Shown here: positions 4,823 to 64,000 of the stretch, piece after piece
Position numbering within the stretch: the stretch's first letter is position 1
Layout of the letters: every line of letters begins with the position of its first letter
Assembly: GCA_019321725.1 (NCBI GenBank)
Contig: CM033114.1
Span: 13,496,278-13,560,277 of the forward strand
DNA from: Paulownia fortunei
Taxonomy: Eukaryota > Streptophyta > Magnoliopsida > Lamiales > Paulowniaceae
Direction of reading: 5' to 3'
DNA length: 64,000 nucleotides
Notes under the pieces: model-generated
What the model was told of the DNA's origin: nothing
Database searches by the model: none
What the model saw: only the letters and a program-made list of their open reading frames with translations
Translations under genes and position numbers: made by a program

Positions 4823-5655
4823 ATGGAAAAATATCCACTTGCAACAATCCTTGAACATAATAAGTTAACTGGACCTAACTTTATTGATTGGCTAAGAAAC
4901 CTGAAGATAGTTCTTCAGTTAGAGAAGAGGGCATATGTTCTCGACACTGAGCCTCTTTTGGTTCTATTGGAGGATGTTACTTCAGAGGATTATGCAGATT
5001 ACTTATGTCATATTGATGACAATCTGCAGGCTTGATGCTACATGCTGGCATCGATGTCAAATGAGTTACAGAGGCAGAACAAGGATCAAGATACTCCTTA
5101 TGGGATCCTTGTTCACCTACAAGAGTTGTATGGTAAAAGAACTCGACAGATGAGATATCAGATCTCAAAAGAGCTTTTCAAATGTCATATGACTGAGGGC
5201 TCTTCAGTCCATGATCATGGATTGAAAATGATAGCCCTTATTGAAAGGCAGGCATCCCTTGGAGTCGTTATGGAGAATGAACTCTATACGAACCTTCTGC
5301 TGTAGTCTCTGACTCCATCATTTGACACCTTTGTTGTCAAATTTAACATGCACAACATGGAGACTAGTCTCACTGAGCTTGTGAACATGTTAAAGACAGT
5401 TGAGTCCACCATGAAAAAGGATAAGCCGATTCTGCTTGTTGGATCTCCTTCTAGATCAAAGGCTAAAAAGCTCAAGAAAGGAAAGAAGAAAAGAAAGGGT
5501 TCCTCTAAATCCAACAAGCTGAAGGTAAATGGCGGTGTCAAGAAGGTTTCTTCTCAAGCCAATGACAAGTGCTATTACTGCGACAAACTAGGGCACTGGA
5601 AGAGGAATTGCAACCAGTATCTTGCAAGCTTAAAGAGTTCAGGTATATATTTTGT
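4823..5655 (+). pseudogene. copia Gag with CCHC zinc knuckle
   Basis: Gag forms the virus-like particle and binds element RNA. The start is the ATG at 4823 (MEKYPLATILEHNKLTGPNF), matching the common copia Gag N-terminus with the W-L-R-N-L-K core. One frame runs for about 275 codons, interrupted only by TGA at 5033-5035 and TAG at 5303-5305. A lysine-rich linker precedes the zinc knuckle CYYCDKLGHWKRNC (about 5570-5611), which keeps the C-x2-C-x4-H-x4-C spacing. The protease follows in another frame. This is the best preserved gag in the window, but two stops make it nonfunctional. Confidence 0.85.
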
Positions 5656-6208
5656 TGTGTTAACAATGCTTTTTGGGTATTAGATACTGGTTGTAGCTCA
5701 CATATTTGCAATGATTTGCAGATAATGACAAGTAGGAAGTTGGATGGAGGAGAGACATTTCTTAGAATGGGGAATGGAGCAAGAGTTACTGCATTAGCTA
5801 TAGGGACGGTTAATCTAGCTTTAGAGAATGGTTATGTAATAATTTTAAAAAATTGTCTTTTTTATTCCGGATATTATTAAGAACATTATCTCTATTCCAA
5901 TTTTGGATAGAGAATGTTTTAGATTTACCATTGAGAATAGAAATTGCTCTATTTTCAAACGTTCTGATTTTATCTATTCTGGTTTTTTGACGAATTATTT
6001 ATATATTATTACTCCCTATAACCCCATTTTCATAATTCAACAAAATAAAAGAAAATTAGATAATCATAGTTTCCTGATCCTGTGGCACGCAAGATTAGGA
6101 TATATTTATGAGAAAAAGATTAACAAATTGACATAATTGCTTGATCTAAAAAAAGAGAAAGAACTGCTAACATATAAATTCTGTCTTAAAGGAACTTCAA
6201 TCTTTTAG
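5656..6208 (+). pseudogene. copia protease and GAG-pre-integrase remnant
   Basis: The retropepsin core is WVLDTGCSSHICND (from about 5673), keeping the catalytic DTG, followed by FLRMGNGARVTALAIG. A frameshift near 5878 moves into NIISIPILDRECF and on to the GAG-pre-integrase motif LWHARLGYI (about 6080-6106). Coding similarity then thins out at a C-L-K-G remnant, which normally belongs to the CESCL-G zinc-binding region of integrase, just before the LTR inserted at 6209. The remainder of integrase resumes after that insertion near 8126. Confidence 0.8.
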
Positions 6209-7892
6209 TGTTAGATTAGGATGACGAGACAACAACAAGAATAGGCTTCTCCTTTTTCATGGTCGATTCGGTCTTATTCAACATTTTGACCAACTTAGGA
6301 AGGCAAGTTTCCTTTTAATGCATATTGAAGTTTACCACAAACAGGTCAAATAAGTTAGGCAAGGATTACAAGATGAGATACATATAGAGTTTATTGTCCA
6401 TAACGACTTCAAGGGACTCGAGAGAGATTAGACTTATCATCTTTGTTAAGATCAACTTATATAAATTTTAATTATGAGTAGGTTAGTCTATGATAGACTT
6501 CCAAAACTCTTGAAGTTTTTTTTATTTTAAGTAGGACCTTTGTAAAGGCAACTCTACTAGGTAATTCTCTTAGAAGACTTAGTCTAAAACAAAAAAAAAA
6601 AAAAAGATGTAGAGCTGATAATTAAGTGAAGAAAATTTCAAGACTAGAGTGATAGACATAGTAGGGCTAAAGGTTTCAGCAAAGTAAGGACATAAGCAGT
6701 TAAGAGTGAGAACTTAAGTCACTAAAAAATCAATAGAGACAACTAAATCCGAGTGCTTATCTAATAAACTAACTAAGTTCTAAGAATCAAACGAGTCCAA
6801 GACCAGAGCAATACACTTAGCGAGGCTAAGGGATCTCAACAGAGTAAGGACATGTGTCTCTTCAAATGATCAAGTTACATCTGTAAACCTCGTATTGATA
6901 AATTGCTAAAGTCTAAATCAATATAAAGCATAAATAAGGCATAGGTTGAAAAGAACAATAGACTACAAATAGTGTCAAACTGCAACTGTGCAACAATATG
7001 ACAAAATAGCTAACCAGTGAGATACGAGAAGAATAGGTGTAACGAGCAAAAAATAAGAGAGAATTATAAAAAGAAGTTGAAGTTTTGAGCAAAATATACA
7101 TTACATAGAGAATAAAATGAAAATGATACAACAAAAAGATCTCTCAAGCTCTCTAAAAATAGACTAAGGGTGAAAAGCATTCTGAAACACTTACTAAGCG
7201 AACTTTAATGCACATATCCTTTTGCTAAGTGATACTCTTATCATAAAATCCAAAAAGAGCTATTAGGGTGGACTCAAACTTGTGTAGGAAGAGTTCAAAC
7301 TTAGACCTATATGGGAAGATTCTCTAATTGTACTTGTGTAGGAAGATTGGGTCGAACTTGTATGGGAAGACCAGGTTGCAGTATCCACAATATTCAGAGA
7401 ATGAGAGGTTGAGGAGTATTTAGTTTTAAAAACTATGTTCATCTATTTGAACTAAGTTGTGTACTTGAAAAATAGCTCTAACGGATTCCTCCAAGAAGTC
7501 AGGAATAGAGTGGACATAGAAAGATTACTCTACCTTCCAACCAATATAAATTTGATGTGTCATTTACTTTCCCATTTACATTTCTGTAGTTTTATTTACA
7601 CGTTCATATTATCTAACGTCATTGCACATATTATAAAATTGTTTCCTGAATTCTTTGAGTATTCAAATTTTTATGCTACATAACTCTGTAGTTTATTAAG
7701 TTGTTCTTCAGAGCCTATGCTTACTGGAACAACAAAGTTAGCGACAAAGTCTTTATTTCACTGAATAAATCAGGCAACTACAATTTCAAAGCTCTTAGTA
7801 TAAAGTTCTATTAAAAATTACATTATGAAAGAGTTTGAAATTTTTGATAGGTCGATTCACCCCAAGACTTTTCATGCCACTTGGGACCAACA
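6209..7892 (+). repeat. second-family copia LTR inserted in integrase
   Basis: The block begins TGTTAGATTAGG and ends GGGACCAACA, directly followed by AG and an iMet-type primer site (7895-7908). It separates the two halves of the copia integrase. Its length of 1684 bp and its ending resemble SIRE-type copia LTRs, although the lineage is inference. It contains a 14-base A run (6591-6604). The 5 bp before it are TTTAG; the partner duplication is lost because the far side is truncated. Confidence 0.6.
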
Positions 7893-8125
7893 AGTGGTAT
7901 TAGAGTAGTTTACCTTTGAAAATGTTTGTGTTGTTTCTCAAATATCATGATTTACGTCACATCCATTCTTGTGTTGAACTTATACGCATTTTTTGACATG
8001 AAAAACATTGATAGTATAGTGAGACTTCCTATGTTCTCCATTGAAGAATATGATAGAACATAATAGAAGTAGGACCACTGAAATTTACCAAAGTTAATAC
8101 GTCTGGTGGGAATGAACAGGTTGCC
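7893..8125 (+). pseudogene. leader and possible gag start of the inserted copia
   Basis: The primer site TGGTATTAGAGTAG (7895-7908) is a degraded TGGTATCAGAGCAG. Downstream, near 8010-8050, the forward frame reads IVRLPMFSIEEYDRT, reminiscent of the start of a SIRE-like Gag, but it is short and followed by a deletion back into the host integrase. Only this stub of the second element's internal region remains. Confidence 0.45.
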
Positions 8126-8863
8126 AAGGCCAAAGCTATGTGGAGATGACCAAATCTCCATTTGTTGGACAAGTGGAGCATGCCAAGCATCTATTGGATT
8201 TAATCCATACAAATGTATGTGGGCCACTAAATGTTAGTGCCTGTAGGACGCTGACTTCTCTAGGTATGGTTATGTGTACTTTTTAAGGTACAAGTCTGAA
8301 GTATTTGAAAAGTTCAAATAATTCAGAACCAAAGTAGAGAAACAAACTGGATTAAGTATAAAAACTCTTCGATCTGATTGAAGAGGTGAATACTTAAGCA
8401 CATAATTTTTAGATTATCTGAAAGAGAATGGGATTCTCTCACAGTGGACTCCTCCTGCTACTCCCCAACTCAACGGAGTTGCGGAATGTAAGAATCGAAC
8501 CTTATTGGCATGGTTTGATCTATGATGAGCTTCAGTTCATTGTCTTTTTTATTCTAGGGTTATGCCTTGGAAATGGCGGCATAGCCCAAAACATCATATG
8601 AGATGTGGTGCGGAAAGACACCTTCCTATAAATACCTTAAGGCATGGGGGTGTGCTTCTTATGTGAAGCAACTAGTGGGAGATAAGTTGGATATGAGATC
8701 CAGCTTATGCAAGTTTGTAGGGTATCCAAAGAAGTTTATTGGATACTATTTCTATGATACCATGGAACAAAGGGTGTTTGTTTCGAGGAATGCTACCTTC
8801 CGTGAAAAAGAATTTCTATTACTTAGAAATAACAAAGTCATGGAACTTGAAGAAGTTCAATAA
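8126..8863 (+). pseudogene. copia integrase remnant
   Basis: Integrase joins the cDNA to host DNA. Recognisable in order: MTKSPFVGQVEHAKHLLDLI, a degraded central domain, KTLRSD-stop-RGEYLS (normally RSDRGGEY), then ENGILSQWTPPATPQLNGVA, the catalytic-glutamate block in which the usual VAERRNRTL is VAECKNRTL. After a damaged stretch (8520-8600) an open segment of 86 codons (8603-8863) matches the C-terminal part, including YLKAWGCASYVKQLVGDKLD and FVGYPKKFIGYYFYD. Stops and frameshifts rule out function. Confidence 0.85.
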
Positions 8864-12478: not shown

Positions 12479-14099
12479 TTTATGTGATTTAGAATATAAA
12501 GAAAAAATTGTGCTATAACTAATAAATCAAAGTAATAAAAGTACTGAAGATTAGGGATCCGCTCTTGAATTTTGGATAAAGAAATAATTATTTATTCTTT
12601 TTATCTCTTTTAAATGTCACTATTGGATCTATACATAATAAAGGTTTCAATGGAAAAATATTATCAAATAACTCATGCATTAAGGTAATCATGATACTGT
12701 CTTACTATTTGCAAATGATCTCTTAACACCAATACTTATTTATATGATCAAGTATTTATGCACAAGTTTGTCTACAAAAAATTAAGGTTTCACATTAGCA
12801 GTCGGTGGAGTAAAATTACACAATAAGCTAAATGAACCCAAGTATTTGTTGTGCCATTAGTCATAAATAAAAAACTATCACCACAAAATAAGAAAGGTTT
12901 TAATGTCAACACTTATTTATGGGATTAAGTATTTATGCACACTTTTGTCTACAAAAAATCAAGGTTTTATATTAGTAGTCGGTGGAGTAAAACTGCACAA
13001 AGCTAAATGAACCCAAATATTTATAATGTTATTGGTGATACATAAATCAAGAATCACCACAAAATAAGGAGTGTCTCAATTAAAAATTAAAATAATAATA
13101 CAACACACATGAACATTATGCACCTTTATAACCGTTTCTTTTCCTCCATCAAGAATTTCACCCTTTCTTCTTAGCTAAATGAAATTTAAAAGAATAAAAA
13201 TAGAAGAGAAACTAGAGAATACCATTCTATTACTACTAGAAAACTTAGCCTAAAGAAAGACAATAACAAAACTTTATTTCCTCCTCTAAAGGTTTTTATT
13301 TTTCTTGAAAGCCATCTAAGAGCCCTTATTTATAGTAGAAGAGTACCTAAATTGGGATCTCTAAATTCATTCCAAATTCACTCCAAATTAATTTCAAATG
13401 TGCTCTAAATTCAGATATCATTTTTAGATTTGAGTTTTGTCGCACATTCTTCTCCATAAAATCAGCTAGTTTTGAAAAGGTGATTAACATGAAACTGTGT
13501 ATTTCTCTATTAGCTTCATTTTTCAACTTGAATCACCTAATTCCAACTACTACAGAGAAAGTTATGATTGATTTAAGGAAATGTGTAAGTATAAATAGAT
13601 CATTTCCAATGCATACAGTTGGATGGATTTTCCGCTATAATCAATGCTAAATTTTGTTGAGTTTCCAACAATAAAGTTGTAGTTCTATCTCTTGAATTTC
13701 AAATAAAGTAACATTCAGGTCCATAGGAATTTGGAACATAAATTTATGCCCAAAATACAAAAACTGTACAAGTCAGGAAACATGCTTATTTTAAGTCCAA
13801 CAATCACTTGCAAAGTCCAACTGATTTCTTATGTACATTTTCATTTACACATGATGGACTTAGGCAAAAATACCCCTTTTTCTTCTAATTTTGATACTTT
13901 TTTGATCCAATAAAATATTATCACCCAACTTGCTCTCAAAATCTGTTGTCTTCTTTGGGTTTTTTTGGCTCTTTTTATCTCTTTTTTGTTTATTGATTTC
14001 GTAACACAAAATAATAATAAAATTATAACATTAACAAGAATAAAGTAAGGAAAGTATAAAGAATTTGATATAAAAATATATTAAAATATGCACTTATCA
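12479..14099 (-). repeat. 3' LTR of gypsy element (truncated)
   Basis: It aligns with 19452-20990 along its whole length, for example TATTTATGGGATTAAGTATT and GGTCGGTGGAGTAAAA-type phrases. Read on the reverse strand it starts TGATAAGTGCATATTTT. A TATA box in the element's sense (CTATAAATAAG) is at 13325-13335. The distal end is cut off by the copia LTR at 12478. Two similar internal blocks (about 12720-12860 and 12900-13060) show an old internal duplication. Confidence 0.8.
13325..13335 (-). promoter_or_regulatory. TATA box of gypsy 3' LTR
   Basis: CTATAAATAAG on the reverse strand. The same box lies at the equivalent place in the 5' LTR (20230-20240) and the edge copy (63471-63480), so it is conserved through three LTRs. 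Confidence 0.6.
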
Positions 14100-14116
14100 A
14101 ATTCCCCCACACTTAA
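14100..14116 (-). other. polypurine tract of gypsy element
   Basis: On the reverse strand TTAAGTGTGGGGGAATT lies directly against the 3' LTR start TGATAAGTGC. This is the position and composition of a plus-strand priming tract, and the arrangement is common to TR-GAG/Athila-like elements. Confidence 0.75.
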
Positions 14117-15910
14117 CCCTGTCTTGTCCTTGAGCAAGATTAAAACAAAGCTAAACTAATCCACTTTTATAGGAAATCATGATTGCATTTAACATATGCA
14201 ACAAGTCTTTAAACCCCTAGCTGGCCCATAGAGGATGAGTTATAGTCTTGTGAGGGTTTCTAGAGATGATACCCACAAACACCTATGATAACTAACTTCC
14301 AACCATTATTATTAGGAAGCAACAAAATAATGTGGAAATAAAATTAAACAAGTGTTGAATCTAGTACTTAGTCATTCAAAGTCAATACATTTCCACAATA
14401 AGCATACTCAAGTGTGTGTGTGAATAGTTAATGTTAATAGTAACGAAACTATGCATGCTTCAAACAAGTGAAATCCCATAGAACCTTACAAAAACCATCA
14501 CATAATCTCTAATGGAAGAGTTAAACATTATAGGCTCTTCCTTTGGTACAAACCTCTACTACACCGAAGGCACCACACGAAATCAAAAGGTCTTCAACAA
14601 AGGTTATAATGGGGCCAAATGGTTGTGATGTGGTTAAGAAATAACAGGATTAGATGTAACAAAGGTTCTAAAAATTTCATGGAATTAGAGACATAGAGTT
14701 TATAAATAAAGAATTCTCATACTCCACGAATTTCAACACCGGGGCTTATTGTTATTGAATTAGACCTCTCTTCATCATTTTTATTGATTTTGCAGCATCC
14801 CATTTTTAGTTGTAGCCCATAATATTTTTAACACTTTGTGACTTTTATTTTTTGGAAGAGAAACTCCCCCACACTTTTTTTTTATTCCAACCCAAATTTC
14901 TTTTGCAAGCTCACCTTGTCAATGGAATATCTCTTAAGTTCCAAATTACTTTTAGAACAAGAGTAGGATAAGTGTATTTAGGCTAGGTAAGAAAATATGA
15001 TTATCACAGAAAAATATTTATTTATTAAAAGGCTCAAAGTGGCTTACTATACGAGATGTTCTTTTGGAATATCATATGGGGAACAAGTTGATTTAGCTAT
15101 ACTGCTAGAAAGCATAATGCCTTAATCATTTTTAAGTGGTGCTCAATCAGTCATTCACCTTGACAGACAAAATAAAAAGTTCTAACAATCAACCCCTACA
15201 TGTCGAAAATCAAGTGATGATTAAAGCGAGAGCATAAGAACTACCTATTTTGACATGTTTGTCTTCACACTGAATAACACAACTATTTGTGCAAAAAGAT
15301 TTGAGTATAATTATCACAAAAATATATTAACCAAAGAATAATATCAAAGTAAAAAACAACACCCATCATTAATCAAACTACATTATTCGTGCTTAATTTT
15401 AATCATTGAAGTTAGAAGAATATCTACGACTAAAAAAAATTTACAACTCACAAACTTTTGTTAAAAACTTCATGAACTTGCATGTTATGCAAAACAAAAT
15501 AGGAGTACGTCTCAAAAGTGTTAAAGTTACCCTTTACTCTACCACCCTTTTTCATGGACCCCAAAAAAATATGCTAAAACCTTTTAAAAAAAATAAAAAC
15601 TAGAAAAATACACATTGAACACACAAGATATGATATCAACTATCCCCTCACCCAACCTAATCGAGACATTGTCCCCAATATCAAAAATAGATAAGAAAGT
15701 AGAGTTTAGAAGATATCACCTGACATGTGACTTATTGAAAAATAAAGCTGAAACAACACAATATGTACACTATCAGTTGAATAAGGATAAATTTCACAAT
15801 CTAAGAGTTAAATTCATTTTGTGTTTTCAACCATTGTCCTTGTTGGACCAATCCACACGAGCCAAGGCTGCATCAGGTTTTAGCATATATACTAGAAGTT
15901 GATTAATCAG
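14117..15910 (-). other. noncoding 3' region of gypsy element
   Basis: No coding similarity was seen. On the reverse strand there is a second purine-rich GTGTGGGGGAGTTTC near 14863-14877 after an A-run, and GGGGACAATGTCTCGATTAG near 15645-15680, both of a kind commonly seen in the long 3' untranslated regions of these elements. Short forward open frames here (15406-15902) look accidental. Confidence 0.5.
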
Positions 15911-16441
15911 CTAGTCAGGTGTTGGTGCAGAAATGTAGATTTGTCTCGCGGGTGAAATGAAACCTTTTTCCATAACATGATCTATAAAAGAAAGCAATCC
16001 GCTAAAGAAACCATTAGTATTAACAATACTTACAGGTTTCTAGTGAATATTGAGTTGTGCCCAAAAGACAACTTTGAATAATTCCTCTAGTGTACAAAAA
16101 TCATGTAGGGTGATGAATGCATCCGCATTATTTAATATGTTAGGCATTCTGTTCTGAATATGAGATATTTTTAGCTTATCTTCGATGGTCATACCTATGA
16201 TATTCTATACTGTTAAAGGTTTTGAGATAACTCTTAAAACTTTGACTCCTTCTACACGAGCAGAAGTAGCAACACTCCCCACTAACCCCAGACTACCTCC
16301 CCCATACATTGAATGAATTTTTCTTTCTGCTAACGTTCTATCAAGGTTATTGGCTACCCCCATAAACTTACCATTTTTTTCTAGATTAGTTCTACAAAAG
16401 ACACAAATAGAGTTGAACTTGTGAGTGGAAGAGACTTCCAT
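15911..16441 (-). pseudogene. LOG-like: LOG-like cytokinin riboside 5'-monophosphate phosphoribohydrolase, intronless pseudogene
   Basis: LOG enzymes release active cytokinin base from its nucleotide in the cytosol. From the ATG at 16441 the frame reads MEVSSTHKFNSICVFCRTN, then MYGGGSLGLVGSVATSA (family: YGGGSIGLMGLVSQAV), then ADAFITLHDF-CTLEELFKVV, WAQLNIH-stop-KPVSIVNTNGF, LLSFIDHVMEKGFISPA and IYISAPT. That is the whole LOG domain in order. One frame is kept for 177 codons, with in-frame stops at 16205-16207 and in IH-stop-KP. The conserved PGGYGTLEE motif has become HDF-CTLEE, losing one codon and its glycines, so activity would be lost. The family is usually near 210 residues, and the C-terminal tail after SAPT is missing. 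Plant LOG genes normally have several introns and none is present here, which indicates an RNA-derived copy. It lies in sense within a gypsy element. Confidence 0.85.
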
Positions 16442-17319
16442 TTTTGTTTTTTTTGAAAATGAGTTGTGTAAAAATAGAATAAGTACGGTACTATTTATTG
16501 AGGTGTGAACAGGGAATGTATTTGTTGCACGTCTTTTTCTTTCGCTATAAATGTTTAAATAAGGACACAAAGTTTGAAAAAAAATTAACTACTACACATG
16601 AATGTACATGTAATTGTGATTGTGGCTCCTATCTTTCTCTAGTTTTACATCTAGTAACAGCTTAAATGCCCTCTATGAGTTGAGTATATGCTTCCCATCT
16701 AATTTTCTTGTGAACTGGTAAATAGGGTCTTTAATGTCGATTCCCAAGATTATAATGCTCATATTCATCCCGGAAGTGATTCTGCACGATGTACTAATCG
16801 ACATGAATGTATCTCAAGAGTCAATATAATGTCATCTAAAGACAATTTACTCAGTCTATCCATAATGAATTAAATTTTATCTTCTCGATTTTTAGAAACT
16901 ATTTCTAAGGAGCAACACTTTGTGTTACAAGTCCATCGAGCACATTTGTGACAAATTTGCATTTTTTCCCCTTTCATTTTTTTGAATATGTGTTGTTACC
17001 AAAGCCATGCATATATCTAGTAAGCAAGTTTGAAAACACATATGACAACTTACCTGCTACTCTTACCTTTGCTTCAGTTATCCATCGTATATCCTCTGGG
17101 ATGCCCTTATGCATAAGTGTGCTTAATCTTTCAATCTTGGTTTTATAATTTTTTAAAATTGCATTTTTAGGAAGAAAAGAAAATTATTTTTTGAGAGTTA
17201 GAAAAATACCATCCATTTTGAAAAGAACAAGAAAAGAGAATGAGAAAAATATAGAAACTTTGTACAGAGATTTTTGTTTGGGAAACTGATAAGTCCAACT
17301 TCAATAACCACAAAGTATC
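16442..17319 (-). other. spacer between protease and LOG copy
   Basis: No family was recognised. The reverse strand has a TATA-like CAATAAATAG at 16491-16500, about 50 bp before the LOG-like ATG, and A-rich sequence between. Near 16840 a short frame reads MDRLSKLSLDDIILTLEIHS, which looks protein-like but was not identified. It could be additional captured host sequence, including a 5' untranslated region, or decayed element sequence. Confidence 0.4.
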
Positions 17320-17757
17320 ATTATCCACCACTTAACCGGGAAAGGTCCTATATTTAGAGAAACATAAATAGAATGTAGCATAACATTAATTTATGCCCCT
17401 AAATCTAACATACATTTTTCAAATCTAGTCTTACCAATGGTACAAGGGATGGTAAAAGTATTGGGATCCTTACACTTTAGAGGAAGTTTTCTTTCAAGAA
17501 TCGTCGAAACATTCTCCCCCACACTTACCTTTTCATCCCCTCTCTACTTTTATTTGTTAGTACATAGCTCTTTGAGGAACTTAAGCATATTGAGGCACCT
17601 GCTGGATTACATCAAGAAGAGAGATGTTTACCTCCACTTTTAGAAAAGTCTCAAAGATCTCTTTTTCGTGCTCATTTTTCTTAGAATTTGCTAACCTACT
17701 AGGAAAAGGTGGAGGTGTTACATAAGTATGAGAGAGAGGTTTAGGAATGGTTACCGA
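17320..17757 (-). pseudogene. gypsy gag C-terminus and aspartic protease remnant
   Basis: On the reverse strand, PPPFPSRLANSKKNEHEKEI, VEVNISLLDVIQQVPQYA, a frameshift, KFLKELCTNK, VSVGENVSTILERKLPLKCK and then TFTIPCTIGKTRFEKCMLDL lead to GA-stop-INVMLHSIYVSLNIGP. In the family this last part is LDLGASINVMPYSIY, the retropepsin active-site region of TR-GAG/Athila-like elements. The S is now a stop, and the RT that would follow is absent. Confidence 0.8.
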
Positions 17758-18975
17758 CTTTAGATTTTCCTTAGGATGAATAGTCTTGTCAACAACTTTT
17801 CCATTTTGAAGAGTTGTGATTGAATTAGCCTCTCCTTGATTGAATTTTCACCTGAAGAATAAACGTGACACTGAGTGGAAGGAATGTGTTGAGGTTGAGT
17901 AAGAAATTTACCTTTTTCATGAGTACACAAAGAAGTTGTCAGTGTTGAAAGTGTGTTTTTGATCTCATTGATGGCTTGTGAAGTCTGGTTATTGATGTTT
18001 ACTTGTGCATGCATAAATTCTTGCAAAATTTTCACAAAATATTTTGTATGTGAAGTTGGATAAAAAGGAAAGTTTGATAGCTTTTCTGAATGTAGCAGTT
18101 AGGCACGATTATCATCTCGCCTACTAAAATTGAGATGATTACTCCATTGTGGATTGTAAGTTTTACAATATGGAGAATGAAAAGGCTTTTTGAATGTGTT
18201 CATGATATTTGCTTGTGTTGGAATATTTAGGCATTTATTGGTGAAGTGTCCCACAAGTTCACAAATTCTACAAACTTCTTCATCTTGCATAGATCTGATT
18301 TCCTTTACTTTTTTAGTTTCATGACCTCAACTTTTCTTGTTAAACTAGTAATCTTAGCATTTAGATTATCTTCTTGACTAAGTTAATATTTTTTCTTTAT
18401 TACTATTAGCAAGATTAGATCTAATAGAACGTTCAGAATAATTAATATTGTCCCATGATTGAGAGTTTTCTGTCAAATGATCTAGATATTCTAGAAATTC
18501 ATCAAGTTCTTTATCAAAAAACTCATCATTACACATTGTTTCAACAAATTATTTTGTTTCAGGAGTTAAACCTTGATAAAAGAAATTAATTAAGTTTAAT
18601 TTTTCAAAACCATGATGTGGGCATGAATTCAACAAATCTTTAAATCTTTCCCAACATTGAAAGAAAACTTTATTAGAATTTTGAGAAAAATTTTGGATTT
18701 GTATTTTCAAAATATTAGTTTTATGAGTTGGAAAGTTTTTTTTCAAAAATTCAACTTACATTTCTTGTCAAGTGCCAACTAACCTATGTTTTAAAGAGTT
18801 AATCCAAGTTTTTGCTTTATCTTTTATAGAAAAAGGAAAGAATTTGAGCTTAATGATCTCATTTGTACAAGTTTGATATTCAAAAGTGGCACATACTTCA
18901 TCGAATTTTTTTAGATGCAAGTAAGGGTATTCAGAGTCTAAACCATGAAAATTAGGAAGTAAAGGGATCATACCT
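17758..18975 (-). pseudogene. gypsy Gag (retrotrans_gag domain)
   Basis: The N-terminal part starts MIPLLPNFHGLDSEYPYLHL (18971) and continues with FDEVCATFEYQTCTNEIIKL and DKAKTWINSLKHR. Downstream, NSNKVFFQCWERFKDLLNSC and HHGFEKLNLINFFYQGLTPE complete the conserved Gag core. A CCHC-like knuckle CRICELVGHFTNKC (about 18230-18275) is followed by the usual NPQWSNHLNFS. The last segment has the QTSQAINEIKNTLSTLTTSL coiled region (about 17920-17985). Several frameshifts and stops separate the pieces. The order and content match TR-GAG/Athila-like gag. Confidence 0.85.
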
Positions 18976-19296
18976 GACTTGAATCGAAAGTGATTTGCAT
19001 TAAGAGAAAAAATAAAATAAGAAGAAGAAGAATTTCGAGGAGATTACAAGTAATAACACATTATACGCACCTGTTGATTAACATTTTTATTTTCACTCAT
19101 GGTGGAAGTGTGTGGAGGTGACTCAAACAAGTTTCCAACCAAAGTTTTAGAATTATTTCTAACTAAACAACAAGAATTATGATTACGAAACAATATTTAA
19201 AAATCATAAAGAATATGAACATATAACCATAAAGAAAACAAACATACAATAATTACAAACAAAAAATATTTACAAACTTTAATGCTTACCTTGCCT
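18976..19296 (-). other. gypsy element leader
   Basis: Short noncoding, A-rich interval between primer site and gag start; nothing else recognised. Confidence 0.5.
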
Positions 19297-19314
19297 TCCC
19301 CGACAACGGGGCAA
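19297..19314 (-). promoter_or_regulatory. primer-binding site, tRNA-Asp type
   Basis: The reverse complement is TTGCCCCGTTGTCGGGGA, three mismatches from the TGGCGCCGTTGCCGGGGA used by TR-GAG/Athila-like elements. It sits 8 bp inside the inferred LTR end. Confidence 0.75.
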
Positions 19315-19322
19315 CAATAACT

Positions 19323-20990
19323 TACTACAACTTTAATGTTGCAAACTCAAGTACAGGATGTGTCAAGTAATAATTTTTTCGGGAGTCCGGGGTTGATCCA
19401 CAGTAAAGTTGTTTAAAGTTTTTAGGATTATGTTTCTTAATAGATGGGTTTTATGTGGTTTAAAATATAAAGAGGAATCTATTCTATAACTAAGAAATCA
19501 AAGTAATGAAAGTATTGAGGATTAGGAATTCGCTCTTGAGTTTTGGATATTTATTCTTTTTACCTCTTGTATGCATCAAAGTAATCATGATATTGTTTTA
19601 CTGTTTGCAAATTATCTTTTAACACCAATACTTATTTATGGGATCAAGTATTTATGCGCACCTTTGTCTACAACAAATTAAGATTTCACATTAGCAGTCG
19701 GTGGAACAAAATCATACAATAAGCTAAATGAACCCAAGTATTTGTTGTGTCGTTGGTGATATGATCACAAAATAAGAAGGGTTTTAACACCACCACCTAT
19801 TTATATGATTAAGTAATTATGTATACATTTATCTACAATAAATCAAAGTTTCACATTAGCAATCGGTGGAGTAGAACCATACAATAAGATAAATGAACCC
19901 AAGTATTTTTTATTCTATTGGTTATACATAAATTAAGAATCACCACAAAATAAGGGGATTTCAATCAAAAAATAAAATGATAATACAACACACCTGAATA
20001 TTTTGCACTTTTATAGCCATTCATCTTCCTCCATCAAAAGGTTCACCCTTTCTCCTCGACTAAATGAAATTAGAAATGTATAATAAAAGTAGAAAATACT
20101 AAAAATAGAAGATAAACTAGATAATACATTTCTATTACTACTAGAAAACTTAGCCTAAAGAAAGAGAACAATAAAACTTTCTTTCCCCTCTAAGGGTTTT
20201 TATTTTTCTTGATTGTCATCTAAGAGCCCCTATTTATAGTAGAAGAGTGTCTAAATTGGTATCTCCAAATGCCCTCCAAATTAACTTTAAATGTGCTTTA
20301 AATTCACATGTCATTTTCATATCTGAATTTTGTCGCACATGTTTCTCCATGAAATCATCTGATTTTAGATATGTGATCAATATGAAAGTTGTGTATTTAT
20401 CTGTTATCTTTAATTTTCAACTTAAGTCACCTAATTCCAACCATTAGACAGAATGTTATGCTTGATTTAAAGAAATGTATCCGTATAGATAAATCATTTC
20501 CAATGCACACATTTGGATGAATTTTCTGGTATAATCAAAGCTGAATTAGGTTGAGCTTCCAACTGGAAAGTTATAGTTCTATCTCTTCGCTTTTAAATGA
20601 AGTAAGATTTAGGTACATAGGAATTTTGAAAATGGAGTTATACCTAAATTATGAAAATTGTACAAGTTTAGAAATATACTTATTTTGAGCCCAACAATCA
20701 CTCGCAAAGTCCAAATAAGTTCTTGCATATATTTTAATCTACACATGAGCAACTTAGCCAAAAATGGTTGTTTTATTTTATTTTGATACTTCTTTGATCC
20801 AATAAAATATTATCTCATAACTTGCTCATGAAACGTGTTGTCTTCTTCAATTTTATTTTGGCTCTTTTTGCCCATTTTTTTCATTGATTCCCTAACACAA
20901 AATATTAATAAAACTATAATATTAACAAGAATAAAAAAAGAAAAGTGTAAAGAATTTGATACAAAAATATGTGAAAATATGTACTTATCA
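19323..20990 (-). repeat. 5' LTR of gypsy element
   Basis: Read on the reverse strand it starts TGATAAGTACATATTTT (20990) and ends AAAGTTGTAGTA (19323), 1668 bp. The edge copy at 62674 ends GTTGTAGCA, supporting this terminus. TATA box CTATAAATAGG at 20230-20240. Apart from the truncated distal end it matches 12479-14099 throughout with many substitutions, so the insertion is not recent. Confidence 0.8.
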
Positions 20991-22650: not shown

Positions 22651-22654
22651 GGTG

Positions 22655-22862
22655 GATGCTCTTGGAAGTCGTTGGGCGCTAGCTCCTAACTTCATAAAGC
22701 TTTTTCTCGGTATGATGGATTATCACTCTTACTATCGCACCTGCTAGTCGGGAGGGTTGATGCTCTTGGAAGTTGCTCGGCACTAGCTCCTAACTTCATG
22801 AAGTTCTTTCTCGACATGGTAGATTATCACTCTTGTTGTCACTCCTAGTAGGGCGTCTGTTG
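22655..22862 (+). repeat. tandem duplication, 104-bp unit
   Basis: GATGCTCTTGGAAGT begins at 22655 and again at 22759. Both units go on through GCTCCTAACTTCAT, TTTCTCG and GATTATCACTCTT with scattered differences. Confidence 0.75.
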
Positions 22863-24237: not shown

Positions 24238-25990
24238 GATAAGTTAGTTTTATACCAATAATTCATGTACCTTTTAATTAATATTTAGTTTGTTTTTAAG
24301 TATTTTTATTACATTTTATGCATTTAGTTTGAAATCTTATAGGTAATGACAATAAGAGAAGAAAATGGAAAGAAATCAAAAACTTGGTAGAAATGTTGAA
24401 AAATTCGAGTTGTGGTGCTATTGATGGCAGTGTTCGTATTTAAAACATAAGTCTCGGCCAAAATTTCATATAAACTTGATTCTTAATCAAATGGAAATCC
24501 AAGAGATATATCTACAACTTTTATGTTTACCAATAAATCCAATTCTTTCAATTTCAATGAGAAATATCGAGTTTAATGGTCAGCACCGGACTAAACTTTT
24601 CTGGTATGACACATCTTGGTATTTCAGGCATAACTCTCTCCACATATGTCATATTTAGTTGATTCAAGTGCCCCTAGAAAGCCATGACACTGAGATATCA
24701 AAAAGATGAATGAAGTCTATGAGGACAGATGCATAGAACCTAGGCGCCAAAACAGAGCGCCTAGGCGCCATCCGAGGCTGCCAAGATAGAATATTCAGCG
24801 CTTAGGCACTGCCTTTCCAACAAAAAAGACGTTGATGCATTTTTTTGGCAACAAGTGGCAATGGATCATGAATTTTGGTATTTTTATAAGATATACACAT
24901 TAGATACACCTATACATCATTACTCATGTGATGCTCTAGTGGATATACTAAATTGGTGGAGAGAAAAAGGAGAAAAAGCCAAGAAAATGGGAAGGATTTT
25001 AGGTTTCTTTTGAAGAAAAGCCAAGAAAAGTGGAAGGATTTTTAGGTTTATTTTGAAGAAAAGCCAAGAAAAGTGGAAGAATTTCAGGGTTTCTTTTGGA
25101 AGACTCTTGGAGAAAGAATCATTGGGGAGAAGTTTAAAAAGGGAAGATCAACATCAACCAAAGAGGGGGAGGATTGGTCCTTGGAACTAAAGGAGGCCAT
25201 TGGGTGCTTGGAGATAAGACCCATTCCATTTTCTACAAATCAAAATAGGTCATTCTTGGAGATAAGGAGCCATTCTTTAAGACAAGAAAAGATTCAACCA
25301 TTCATTCCACTTCACAAATTGGTAAACAATTTCTATGTTCTTCCTTATTTATTTTTTGAAGTTGTATTCATCCATGATGAACTAAACTTTTCTTTCTAGA
25401 AGATGATGTAATCTTATTTGATCTTATGTTTTGAATTCCAAACAATATTAGTTCAAGTTATTCATCTTGTTTGTGTTATCTTGTTTAGTATTGCATCTTG
25501 ATTATTTGGCCACTTATTGAGATTGTTTGATGTATGAGATTCGGCACTCGAGAGAGGGAAGATTATACATAATCATAAGGATAACACAATCTAGAAATCA
25601 TAAAGTTGAGAAGCTTATGAAACCTTTGAAGTTTTGAAGAAGAATTCATTAAACTTTTGTAGAGTTTTATTCTTGAATTTTTATAGAGATATTGAAATTC
25701 ATGTTGGAACTCATAATTAATTTGGCACTCGAGAGAGGGAATTGATGAGCTTAGGAATTCTTAACTTACATGTATTGTTGACTTGAATTAGTATATTTTG
25801 GAAGGAAGAACATAGGTGATAATTAGGTGAATCATTCCTCTATAATTTTTCGCTCATAAGGTGTTTGTTATATTGTTTCTAAAAACTCCACTCTTGTCTT
25901 TGTAGTTTTATCTTACTTTACTTTGTTTTTCAATCATCAATCAATTTTCTAGATAAAATTATGACTATTTGAACTGCAGTACTTAATGTA
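24238..25990 (+). repeat. TGATAAG-type LTR fragment
   Basis: It starts TGATAAGTTAGTTTTATACC where the copia leader similarity ends. It has the make-up of a long gypsy LTR (AT-rich U3, CTCGAGAGAGGGAA phrases at about 25548 and 25727) but no primer site or second end was found; it seems truncated near 25990. A GC-rich GCGCCTAGGCGCC repeat lies at about 24740-24775. The open frame at 25073-25399 is within it and I do not support it as a gene. Confidence 0.45.
24977..25098 (+). repeat. three-copy tandem repeat, 42-43 bp unit
   Basis: Units beginning AGCCAAGAAAA at 24977, 25019 and 25062 share GGAAGGATTTT-AGGTTT and TTTTGAAGAAA. Confidence 0.8.
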
Positions 25991-62673: not shown

Positions 62674-64000
62674 TGCTACAACTTTAAGGTTGCAAACCTA
62701 AGTGCAGGTTGTAGTAAGTAATAAATTTCTCGTGAGTCCGAGGTCGATCCACAGGGAAGTTGTTTGAAGAATTCAAGTTTATATTTCTAAAAAGATGGAG
62801 TTTATGTGAATCAAAATATATGAACAATTAATGTATGATGTAACTAAAGAAAAACCGAAGTAATAAAAGTACTAAGGATTAGGGATCCACTCTTGAGTTT
62901 TGGATAGAGAAATGGTTATTTATTCTTTTTACCTCTATTAATTGTCACAATTGGAATCCATACATAATGAAGGTTCCAATGGAATATATTATCAAGTAAC
63001 TCATGCAATAAGGTAATCATGATATTGTCTTACTATTGCAAATTATCTCTTAACGCCAACACTTCGTCAACAACAAATCAAGGTTTCACATTAGCAGTCG
63101 GTGGGGTAAAACCGTACAATAAGCTAAATAAATCCAAGTATTTGTTGTGCCATTGGAGATACATAAATCAAGAATCACCACAAAACAAGTAGGGTTTAGA
63201 TCAAAAATAAAAATAATAATACAACATACTTAAATAATTTCTACACTTATAACCATTTCTCTTCCTCCATCAAGAGATTCACCCTTTTTCCTCAACAAAA
63301 TGAAATTTAGAAAGATATAATAAAAGTAACAAAGACTAAAAATATAAGAGAAACTAGAGAATGCATTTCTATTACTACTAGAAAACTTACAATACTAGAA
63401 AACATACAAACTAGATAACTTAGCCTAAAGAAACCCTCTACCCCCTCCTCTTACAAGCTGAATACATGGCCTATTTATAGTACTTGGAGTAAGCTAGAGG
63501 CCAAACAAATAATGGAGGGGTTAATCAAGTGGTATGCTAGTTGCCAAGAGTTGGTAAGTTGTTACACAAATTTCTCATCTACTGAATTGAATTATATTTT
63601 TCGATCAGATACAGCCAGATGTTGAAGATATGTAAAGAATCAAAATTGTAGATCTTTCAGCTCTGATATATTTTCATATATCTTTTGTCAAATTTGGCGA
63701 TCCAATGAAGGAGATATGGTCAAATTACCGAGTCATGTCCAAGAGCCGCCCTGTAACATCAGCAGCAACTTGCAGCCTATGGTTTTACTATTTCAACACA
63801 TTTTCACACCATCTTGTATTCAACAAAATTGTTTATTTACTCTTGGGTATAACATATCCAAATTTCAGACAAAATAAATTTGGGCTCAAGATATATAACC
63901 GAATTGGTAAAATAAGTCAATACTGGGCTGAACTCTGATCCGAATTTTGGTGATCCATTTTGTGCAACTACTTGGATGAATTTTCTGCTATCATCAACAC
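62674..64000 (-). repeat. third copy of the gypsy LTR, cut by window edge
   Basis: It starts TGCTACAACTTTAAGGTTGC and follows the LTR at 19323 through CGATCCACAG, AGTAATAAAAGTACTAAGGA, GCAGTCGGTGGGGTAAAACC and the TATA box region (63471-63480). It diverges in part after about 63400 and continues past 64000. Whether an element lies beyond cannot be seen. Confidence 0.75.

Follow-up and report, generated by a model that had tools for sequence, protein, structure and literature searches.

How a gene of the cytokinin-activating LOG family came to stand inside a gypsy retrotransposon of Paulownia fortunei, and whether it is a recent acquisition or an old part of the element, is the question raised by this locus, which we analysed in a window of 64,000 nucleotides (the whole stretch of DNA under study). 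The reading that we consider probable is that of a gypsy lineage with two old accessory genes, one of them like a carlavirus nucleic-acid-binding protein (NABP-like) and the other LOG, carried between integrase and the 3′ LTR, with LOG kept by selection; what the product of LOG does for the element is something that we infer.

The reverse strand holds a LOG domain with the motifs named in the original prediction. With its stops read as X, the frame matches Pfam PF03641 at 4.3e-19 (69.4 bits, curated cut-off 27), scores 103.1 bits on TIGR00730 (cut-off 96.35) and has Arabidopsis At2g37210 as its PDB match (6.1e-40), while a protein search returned a LOG as best match, namely the 217-aa P. fortunei protein P0001 (6e-89, 73% over the whole query). 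The PF03641, At2g37210 and Paulownia matches together argue that the frame is not a product of chance; P0001, P0149 and P0141 all score above it on PF03641 and TIGR00730. The domain had been placed at 15911-16441, where a minus-strand frame does lie, but the full frame runs from 16441 to 15794 and stops at the same point as the 217-aa relatives do. It had also been called almost complete, a description that does not survive, as the frame is interrupted by four premature stops (TAG at 16207, 16042 and 15913; TGA at 15829) and the active-site PGG of the PGGxGTxxE motif is broken, with HDFC where relatives have PGGFG. The residues of P0001 at the four stop positions are Gln, Gln, Gln and Arg, which points to C-to-T changes in CAG and CGA codons, and such changes, as in methylated transposons, are the likely source of the stops. 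The catalytic Arg99 and Glu122 (CgLOG numbering) are both retained. Judged from its stops and its broken PGG, the window copy of LOG is dead, a pseudogene. It is intronless, as foreseen, forming a single stretch that lacks two codons and is not frameshifted. We dropped the frameshift count as a sign of selection, since the LTR pair of the element itself has only 10-13 gaps per about 1350-1520 compared columns, a rate at which a frameshift-free LOG with two lost codons is unsurprising.

Table 1. Features of the LOG-bearing element, in positions of the window.
Feature	Position	Strand	Evidence or remark
5′ LTR	19315..20990	minus	LTR alignment and repeats; TGATAAG start at 20990; putative inner end, placed from the primer-binding site
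Primer-binding site	19297..19314	minus	15 of 18 bases complementary to what we take to be the 3′ end of tRNA-Asp
gag remnant	17760..19100	minus	several stops; matched by the gag of 8 of 10 other copies at 80-88% DNA identity
Capsid piece of gag	18549-18755	minus	PF03732, 8.9e-11
Protease remnant	17335..17600	minus	DNA match of 84-86% to copies c2 and c5; named by a motif that is presumably that of a protease
NABP-like (Carla_C4) ORF remnant	16679..17219	minus	tblastn 7.9e-35
LOG frame	15794..16441	minus	215 codons and stop; 4 premature stops; frameshift-free
C-terminal tail codons of LOG	15797..15826	minus	KHKMNLTLRL, Leu-x-Leu-x-Leu; end of the LOG frame
Non-coding 3′ part	14115..15793	minus	matched at 80-84% nearly end to end by 7 of the 10 other copies, over shorter stretches by the other 3
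Purine-rich tract	14100..14114	minus	adjoins the 3′ LTR; from the sequence, role presumed
3′ LTR	12479..14099	minus	LTR alignment; outer end worn away or lost

The element around LOG reads from right to left, on the minus strand (Table 1), and its LTRs align at about 84% over 12479-14099 and 19450-20990 (K2P 0.19). LOG lies between them in sense with gag and beyond the protease, so that the predicted placement within a gypsy element holds. The Ty3/gypsy features that this copy retains are the LTRs, the primer site, gag and part of the protease, and only these; the protease piece has no Pfam match of its own, and reverse transcriptase and integrase, which together with RNase H are present in another copy (L016), were unmatched in the five pieces of the window read through from protease to 3′ LTR. 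When a short piece of gag was searched against proteins, three short matches came back. In both window LTRs a segment of about 170 bp is tandemly duplicated (12723-13000 and 19619-19884).

That a retrotransposon might have amplified LOG is borne out by a search of the 509-Mb P. fortunei genome. The DNA of the window LOG matched at all 40 scored places, its own included (the best 40 of 2190 first-look candidates), and a 49-aa LOG piece at all 150 (the best 150 of 2057 candidates), the two lists together giving at least 183 distinct LOG places on 39 contigs. No stop falls within the matched stretch at 147 of the 150 best-scored places, a figure biased toward good copies because places were ranked by score. 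The 40 copies nearest to that of the window, itself included, are mostly decayed: nine have a single full-length match, at least five carry an intact LOG by a strict test (no stops, no gaps), and a few more are stop-free up to residue 210. A stop-free LOG frame is also present at L053 (G000:C12:16721063-16722195), with just 72% identity to P0001; it represents another subfamily or a kept gene.

To place LOG within the element we read the flanks of the ten next-best LOG copies (c1-c10). The spacer and LOG are present in all ten, and in eight (c1-c7 and c10) LTR, leader and gag precede LOG in sense, so that further LOG-bearing members of this LTR family do exist, as had been proposed; gag is absent from c8 and c9. 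An LTR follows LOG in eight of the ten, with none there in c4 and c8. The gap from the gag match to the spacer measures 3.7-4 kb in six of the eight gag-bearing copies, and about 1.1 kb in c2 and c5, where the protease stretch is present, which indicates that pol was lost more than once or that pol varies. What may fill the longer gap is seen in L016, the one copy read for domain order, in which ten scanned ORFs give gag (6.4e-26), an aspartic protease (Asp_protease_2, 2.3e-6), RVT_1 (2.8e-24), RT_RNaseH (1.2e-37), Integrase_H2C2 (6.2e-14) with rve (1.3e-11), then a 214-codon ORF that matches Carla_C4 and, last, the PF03641 LOG domain (8.8e-37). Among these ten ORFs there was no second RNase H, a feature of Tat elements. 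The family thus has the LTRs, primer site, gag and protease-RT-RNaseH-integrase series of Ty3/gypsy, with the domain order taken from L016 alone. Given pol upstream of LOG in L016 and the 3.7-4 kb gap elsewhere, the window copy has, most simply, lost its pol. LTR pairs could be compared in eight of the ten copies: identity within the pair is 96-97% in c1 and c3, 89% in c7 and 80-86% over 205 to 1760 columns in the remaining ones, and c4 and c8 have none. The high identity in c1 and c3 indicates that some insertions are much younger than that of the window.

The second accessory gene lies immediately upstream. In L016 the 214-codon zinc-finger ORF, which gives 185 aa when counted from the first Met, matches Carla_C4 (PF01623, the cysteine-rich nucleic-acid-binding protein of carlaviruses) at 1.3e-5 to 1.6e-5 with 25.2 bits against a cut-off of 20.9, a match that is modest and short (about 35 positions); it scores under the cut-off of Viral_NABP, as the window remnant does under that of Carla_C4. 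When the genome was searched with the Carla_C4 family all 150 scored places (the best 150 of 485 candidates) were above the cut-off, and none of 14 control genomes, which may include no plant, gave a match above it. Of the 150 places, at least 46 lie within 3 kb of one of the LOG matches listed (0.3 expected), with the LOG downstream and on the same strand in every one of the 46 and at 0.88-0.94 kb in 37 of them, and the remaining 104 have no LOG neighbour among those listed matches. Where the top NABP-like loci were read directly, LOG sequence followed downstream in eight of eight, with the first 38 residues only in L084. P0046, a protein of the Populus-like group, carries a piece of the NABP-like ORF fused to LOG, and the score of this piece in the window is 72, where 500 shuffles reach 42 at most; the fusion suggests that the two genes were probably paired before the groups split. 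A neighbour of this kind suggests exchange between an RNA virus and an LTR element, in either direction. The idea that LOG is spliced from an upstream exon, raised by a donor-like CAGGTAAGT near 17054 and by P0046 with its fused upstream piece, was rejected, since that piece belongs to the NABP-like ORF of L016; P0046 is more simply read as a deletion fusion than as a splice product.

The age of the association can be judged from the relatives of the window LOG. From 228 proteins, less three gag proteins, 225 database rows remained, of which 126 form one group with the window LOG (support 81 in a quick tree of 227 rows with the tail and three pocket columns removed) and 99 fall outside. In a careful tree of 61 rows the clade has support of 99/92 without the tail and the three pocket columns and 100/99 with all columns; the careful trees held 24 clade representatives of the 126 (86% clustering, at least 170 aa), together with 28 plant LOGs, three Xanthoceras proteins and five bacterial ones that we chose. 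The 126-row group, including 11 untailed rows, is the same whether or not the tail and pocket columns enter the tree. Its rows include Paulownia, Orobanche, Reevesia and Populus. With all columns the window, Paulownia and Orobanche rows cluster at 100/93, and in the reduced-column careful tree the window falls inside a four-row set at 97/82; five Reevesia representatives cluster at 100/100. Such host-wise clusters fit descent with the hosts. Rosids and asterids separated over a hundred million years ago, and the presence of rows from both in the clade argues that the capture of LOG is old, its age being left loose by the long branch below the clade. Across the clade P0001 shares 53-64% protein identity with other members at near-constant length. 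Among the best 120 of 7457 matches (8000 candidates scored), Reevesia has 28, Populus seven, Paulownia four and Xanthoceras three, the gene tags of the 28 Reevesia rows being spread over 14 chromosomes; these copy numbers and this scatter fit a transposon. That the Orobanche, Reevesia and Populus LOGs, known as proteins, also reside in elements is suggested by copy number, by a report on Citrus and Populus (PMC9289625) and by P0046. Sister to the clade stand Xanthoceras P0124, P0125 and P0126, which have two LOG units per chain, an ordinary pocket and no tail, and which possibly lie near the donor. In the Paulownia genome itself, an ordinary LOG piece finds matches of 65-92% at 17 of the 150 places scored, and these are candidates for host LOGs; their open frames are short (49-99 aa), as of exons, which would make spliced RNA the source of the element's LOG. 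Searches farther afield gave sequence-pattern matches in IMG/VR with no relative confirmed, and three bacterial LOGs at 41-48% among GTDB genomes, which are not informative. Populus rows P0145, P0198 and P0219, members of the element clade, are named as the host gene LOGL10 in public records, so that some relatives of the element are filed there as a host gene.

Outside the decayed window copy, the clade proteins keep the catalytic machinery of LOG and differ around the substrate. Residue roles follow PMC4979012, in CgLOG numbering. Among the 126 rows the PGGxGTxxE motif keeps its first Gly in 120, its second in 124, Thr in 123 and the last Glu in 121, and the catalytic pair is retained, Arg99 in 116 and Glu122 in 121. 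Lys100 occurs in none, its place being taken by Met, Leu or Ile in 125, whereas all 99 other rows have it, and Glu125, likewise present in 99 of 99 others, has become His or Gln in 121, with no Glu tabulated; His97 is retained in 33. The cytokinin-specific prenyl pocket (His97, Lys100, Glu125) is therefore not that of the clade, and on the NCBIfam equivalog NF058542 P0001 scores 116, far under the cut-off of 300. A C-terminal LxLxL tail ends 115 of the 120 clade rows of at least 205 aa as against 0 of 99 other rows, a contrast favoured by profile A2, the source of most rows, which held the tail columns; the query of the first protein search stopped short of the tail. Of the 119 rows of at least 212 aa, every one has Leu at -1 and 117 have it at positions -3, -5 and -7, with Lys at -10 in 115. 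LxLxL EAR motifs bind TOPLESS and repress, as shown for RABBIT EARS (PMC10942257), and the clade tail is like such a TOPLESS-docking motif. An AlphaFold2 model of P0001 (pLDDT 90) has the LOG fold, with 2a33 as the best Foldseek match (rmsd 0.8), and its last 17 residues are modelled at about 60, as would be expected of a docking tail.

Selection on LOG was gauged from dN/dS. The window LOG against L048 gives 0.51 (95% 0.33-0.82) and ten further old copies give 0.44-0.66, the 95% range reaching 1 in four of these eleven (L018, L042, L058 and L046), which we picked for bootstrapping from 39 copies compared. Near-1 values among the 39 comparisons come from two diverged copies, L041 (0.92) and L054 (0.98); a ratio of 0.81 comes from L053 when it is compared with the window copy, and the young copies, with few changes, spread from 0.24 to 2.14. 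Subtracting half the LTR distance, as the neutral decay of the window copy, brings the ratio to about 0.26 by rough arithmetic, (0.143-0.095)/(0.278-0.095). We regard purifying selection on the LOG lineage as supported, not proved, by these comparisons.

These observations bear unequally on the other ways in which the locus might be explained. In the original prediction a non-autonomous element had recently taken up a spliced LOG mRNA, and the intronless LOG of the window, its sense orientation and the absence of pol from the pieces scanned are in keeping with this. An intronless LOG carried by a gypsy element is the part that stands; recency and non-autonomy fall, since L016 has pol upstream of LOG, the clade takes in Populus, Reevesia and Orobanche rows, rosid and asterid alike, and the NABP-like ORF and LOG hold their order and spacing. 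On the sequences compared, the recent-event form of transduction is already refuted, and we hold the proposal to be very improbable. A separate LINE-type retrocopy of LOG, inserted in this single element, would equally be intronless, but it is hardly credible, as the flanks of LOG compared in the window lack a poly(A) run and any exact direct repeat of at least 10 bp, and the same upstream piece precedes LOG in all ten other copies, which refutes it. No best match outside LOG, no intron, no poly(A) or target repeat and no LOG private to one copy was seen.

Two further readings accept an old capture and concern what LOG is for. If it were an unused passenger, its conserved features inherited and unselected, the decay of many copies and the few intact ones among the nearest 40 would be accounted for, as would dN/dS values that lie moderately below 1, reach it within error in some old copies and come near it in L041 and L054; we think this improbable in view of the steady length, the catalytic pair and the tail that P0001 and its relatives hold across rosids and asterids at 53% identity or more, and of the mostly stop-free best-scored places, score-ranked as these are. 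LOG might instead have been kept for classical cytokinin activation, releasing cytokinins from iP- and tZ-riboside monophosphates, with the tail a folding or dimer feature and no EAR motif. The LOG fold and the retained Arg99 and Glu122 agree with such a role, which is possible though doubtful, since Lys100 is replaced throughout the clade and Glu125 nearly so, and since the tail is modelled at low confidence, as though disordered.

We therefore return to a gypsy lineage with two old accessory genes and propose the following model, each step of which is conditional. LOG would have been captured from a spliced host mRNA prior to the rosid-asterid split and retained since because its product helps the element. 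The product may still act as a LOG-fold phosphoribohydrolase, freeing a base from an AMP-like nucleotide, with a substrate preference presumably altered at the N6 side. A basic, disordered, EAR-like tail could take it to TOPLESS in the nucleus, and dividing cells might thereby be brought to a hormone or nucleotide state that favours the element, as with viral accessory proteins. In its fullest version, a two-gene cassette for host manipulation inherited from before the rosid-asterid split, in which a carlavirus-like NABP would be joined by a neofunctionalised LOG that docks on TOPLESS and acts on a non-classical N6-modified AMP, the model is tentative and, we think, rather unlikely to be right in every part. 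The tail and pocket changes do point to what the element might gain: corepressor docking, a new substrate, or both.

The presence of LOG in LTR elements is not new, contrary to what had been supposed. YgdH, a LOG-family domain, is reported in Citrus gypsy consensus sequences and, with a filter off, in those of Populus (PMC9289625, citing Steinbauerova 2011). As here, the domain lies in gypsy elements, found in that case by their reverse transcriptase; the report as it bears on YgdH gives presence only, to which Paulownia adds the partner gene, the tail and the pocket, and its main text, when searched by term, mentions neither carlavirus nor nucleic-acid binding. In the literature searched, outside which most subscription papers lie, the NABP-like partner, leucine tail and pocket change were not found in print, which is weak evidence of their novelty. 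The element's LOG shares with plant LOGs (Arabidopsis LOG3, 2a33) the fold, the catalytic Arg and Glu and, in most relatives, PGGxGTxxE; host LOGs differ in having introns (peanut LOG genes mostly have 7 exons; PMC13257298), in keeping the pocket Lys and Glu and in lacking the leucine tail. Athila/Tat (OTA) gypsy elements (PMC6317226) have in common with it the gypsy order, additional ORFs that lie in sense between pol and the 3′ LTR, and a tRNA-Asp-like primer site, but the domains described for those ORFs (plant mobile domain, Transposase_28, Athila ORF-1) are unlike those found here. Maize Bs1 and other transducing LTR elements likewise hold host gene sequence; in Bs1 this is described as segments without full-length frames (PMC13317346), whereas the LOG element has a whole enzyme frame across plant orders. 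The ALKBH5-like domain of orchid gypsy elements is likewise an acquired enzyme domain with a bearing on N6-modified adenine, and differs in enzyme family, plants and RNA substrate (PMC9289625). As to carlavirus NABP (PF01623), the ORF of other copies is above the curated cut-off, but it spans 185 aa from the first Met and sits within an LTR element. A whole host-derived enzyme long retained is seldom known for plant retrotransposons, and if LOG is active, one genome carries a mobile hormone-pathway gene at no fewer than 183 places, in many of them decayed.

Elsewhere in the window, an LTR piece of the same family as the LOG element lies near the right edge (62676-63389), and a LOG place on the minus strand (C10:13562523) follows 2.2 kb past the window end; a second LOG element probably starts there. 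Copia remnants with zinc-knuckle and retroviral SH3-like domain matches occupy 5306-8863, and a two-copy 97-nt and a three-copy 42-nt repeat are found at 22651-22851 and 24974-25100.
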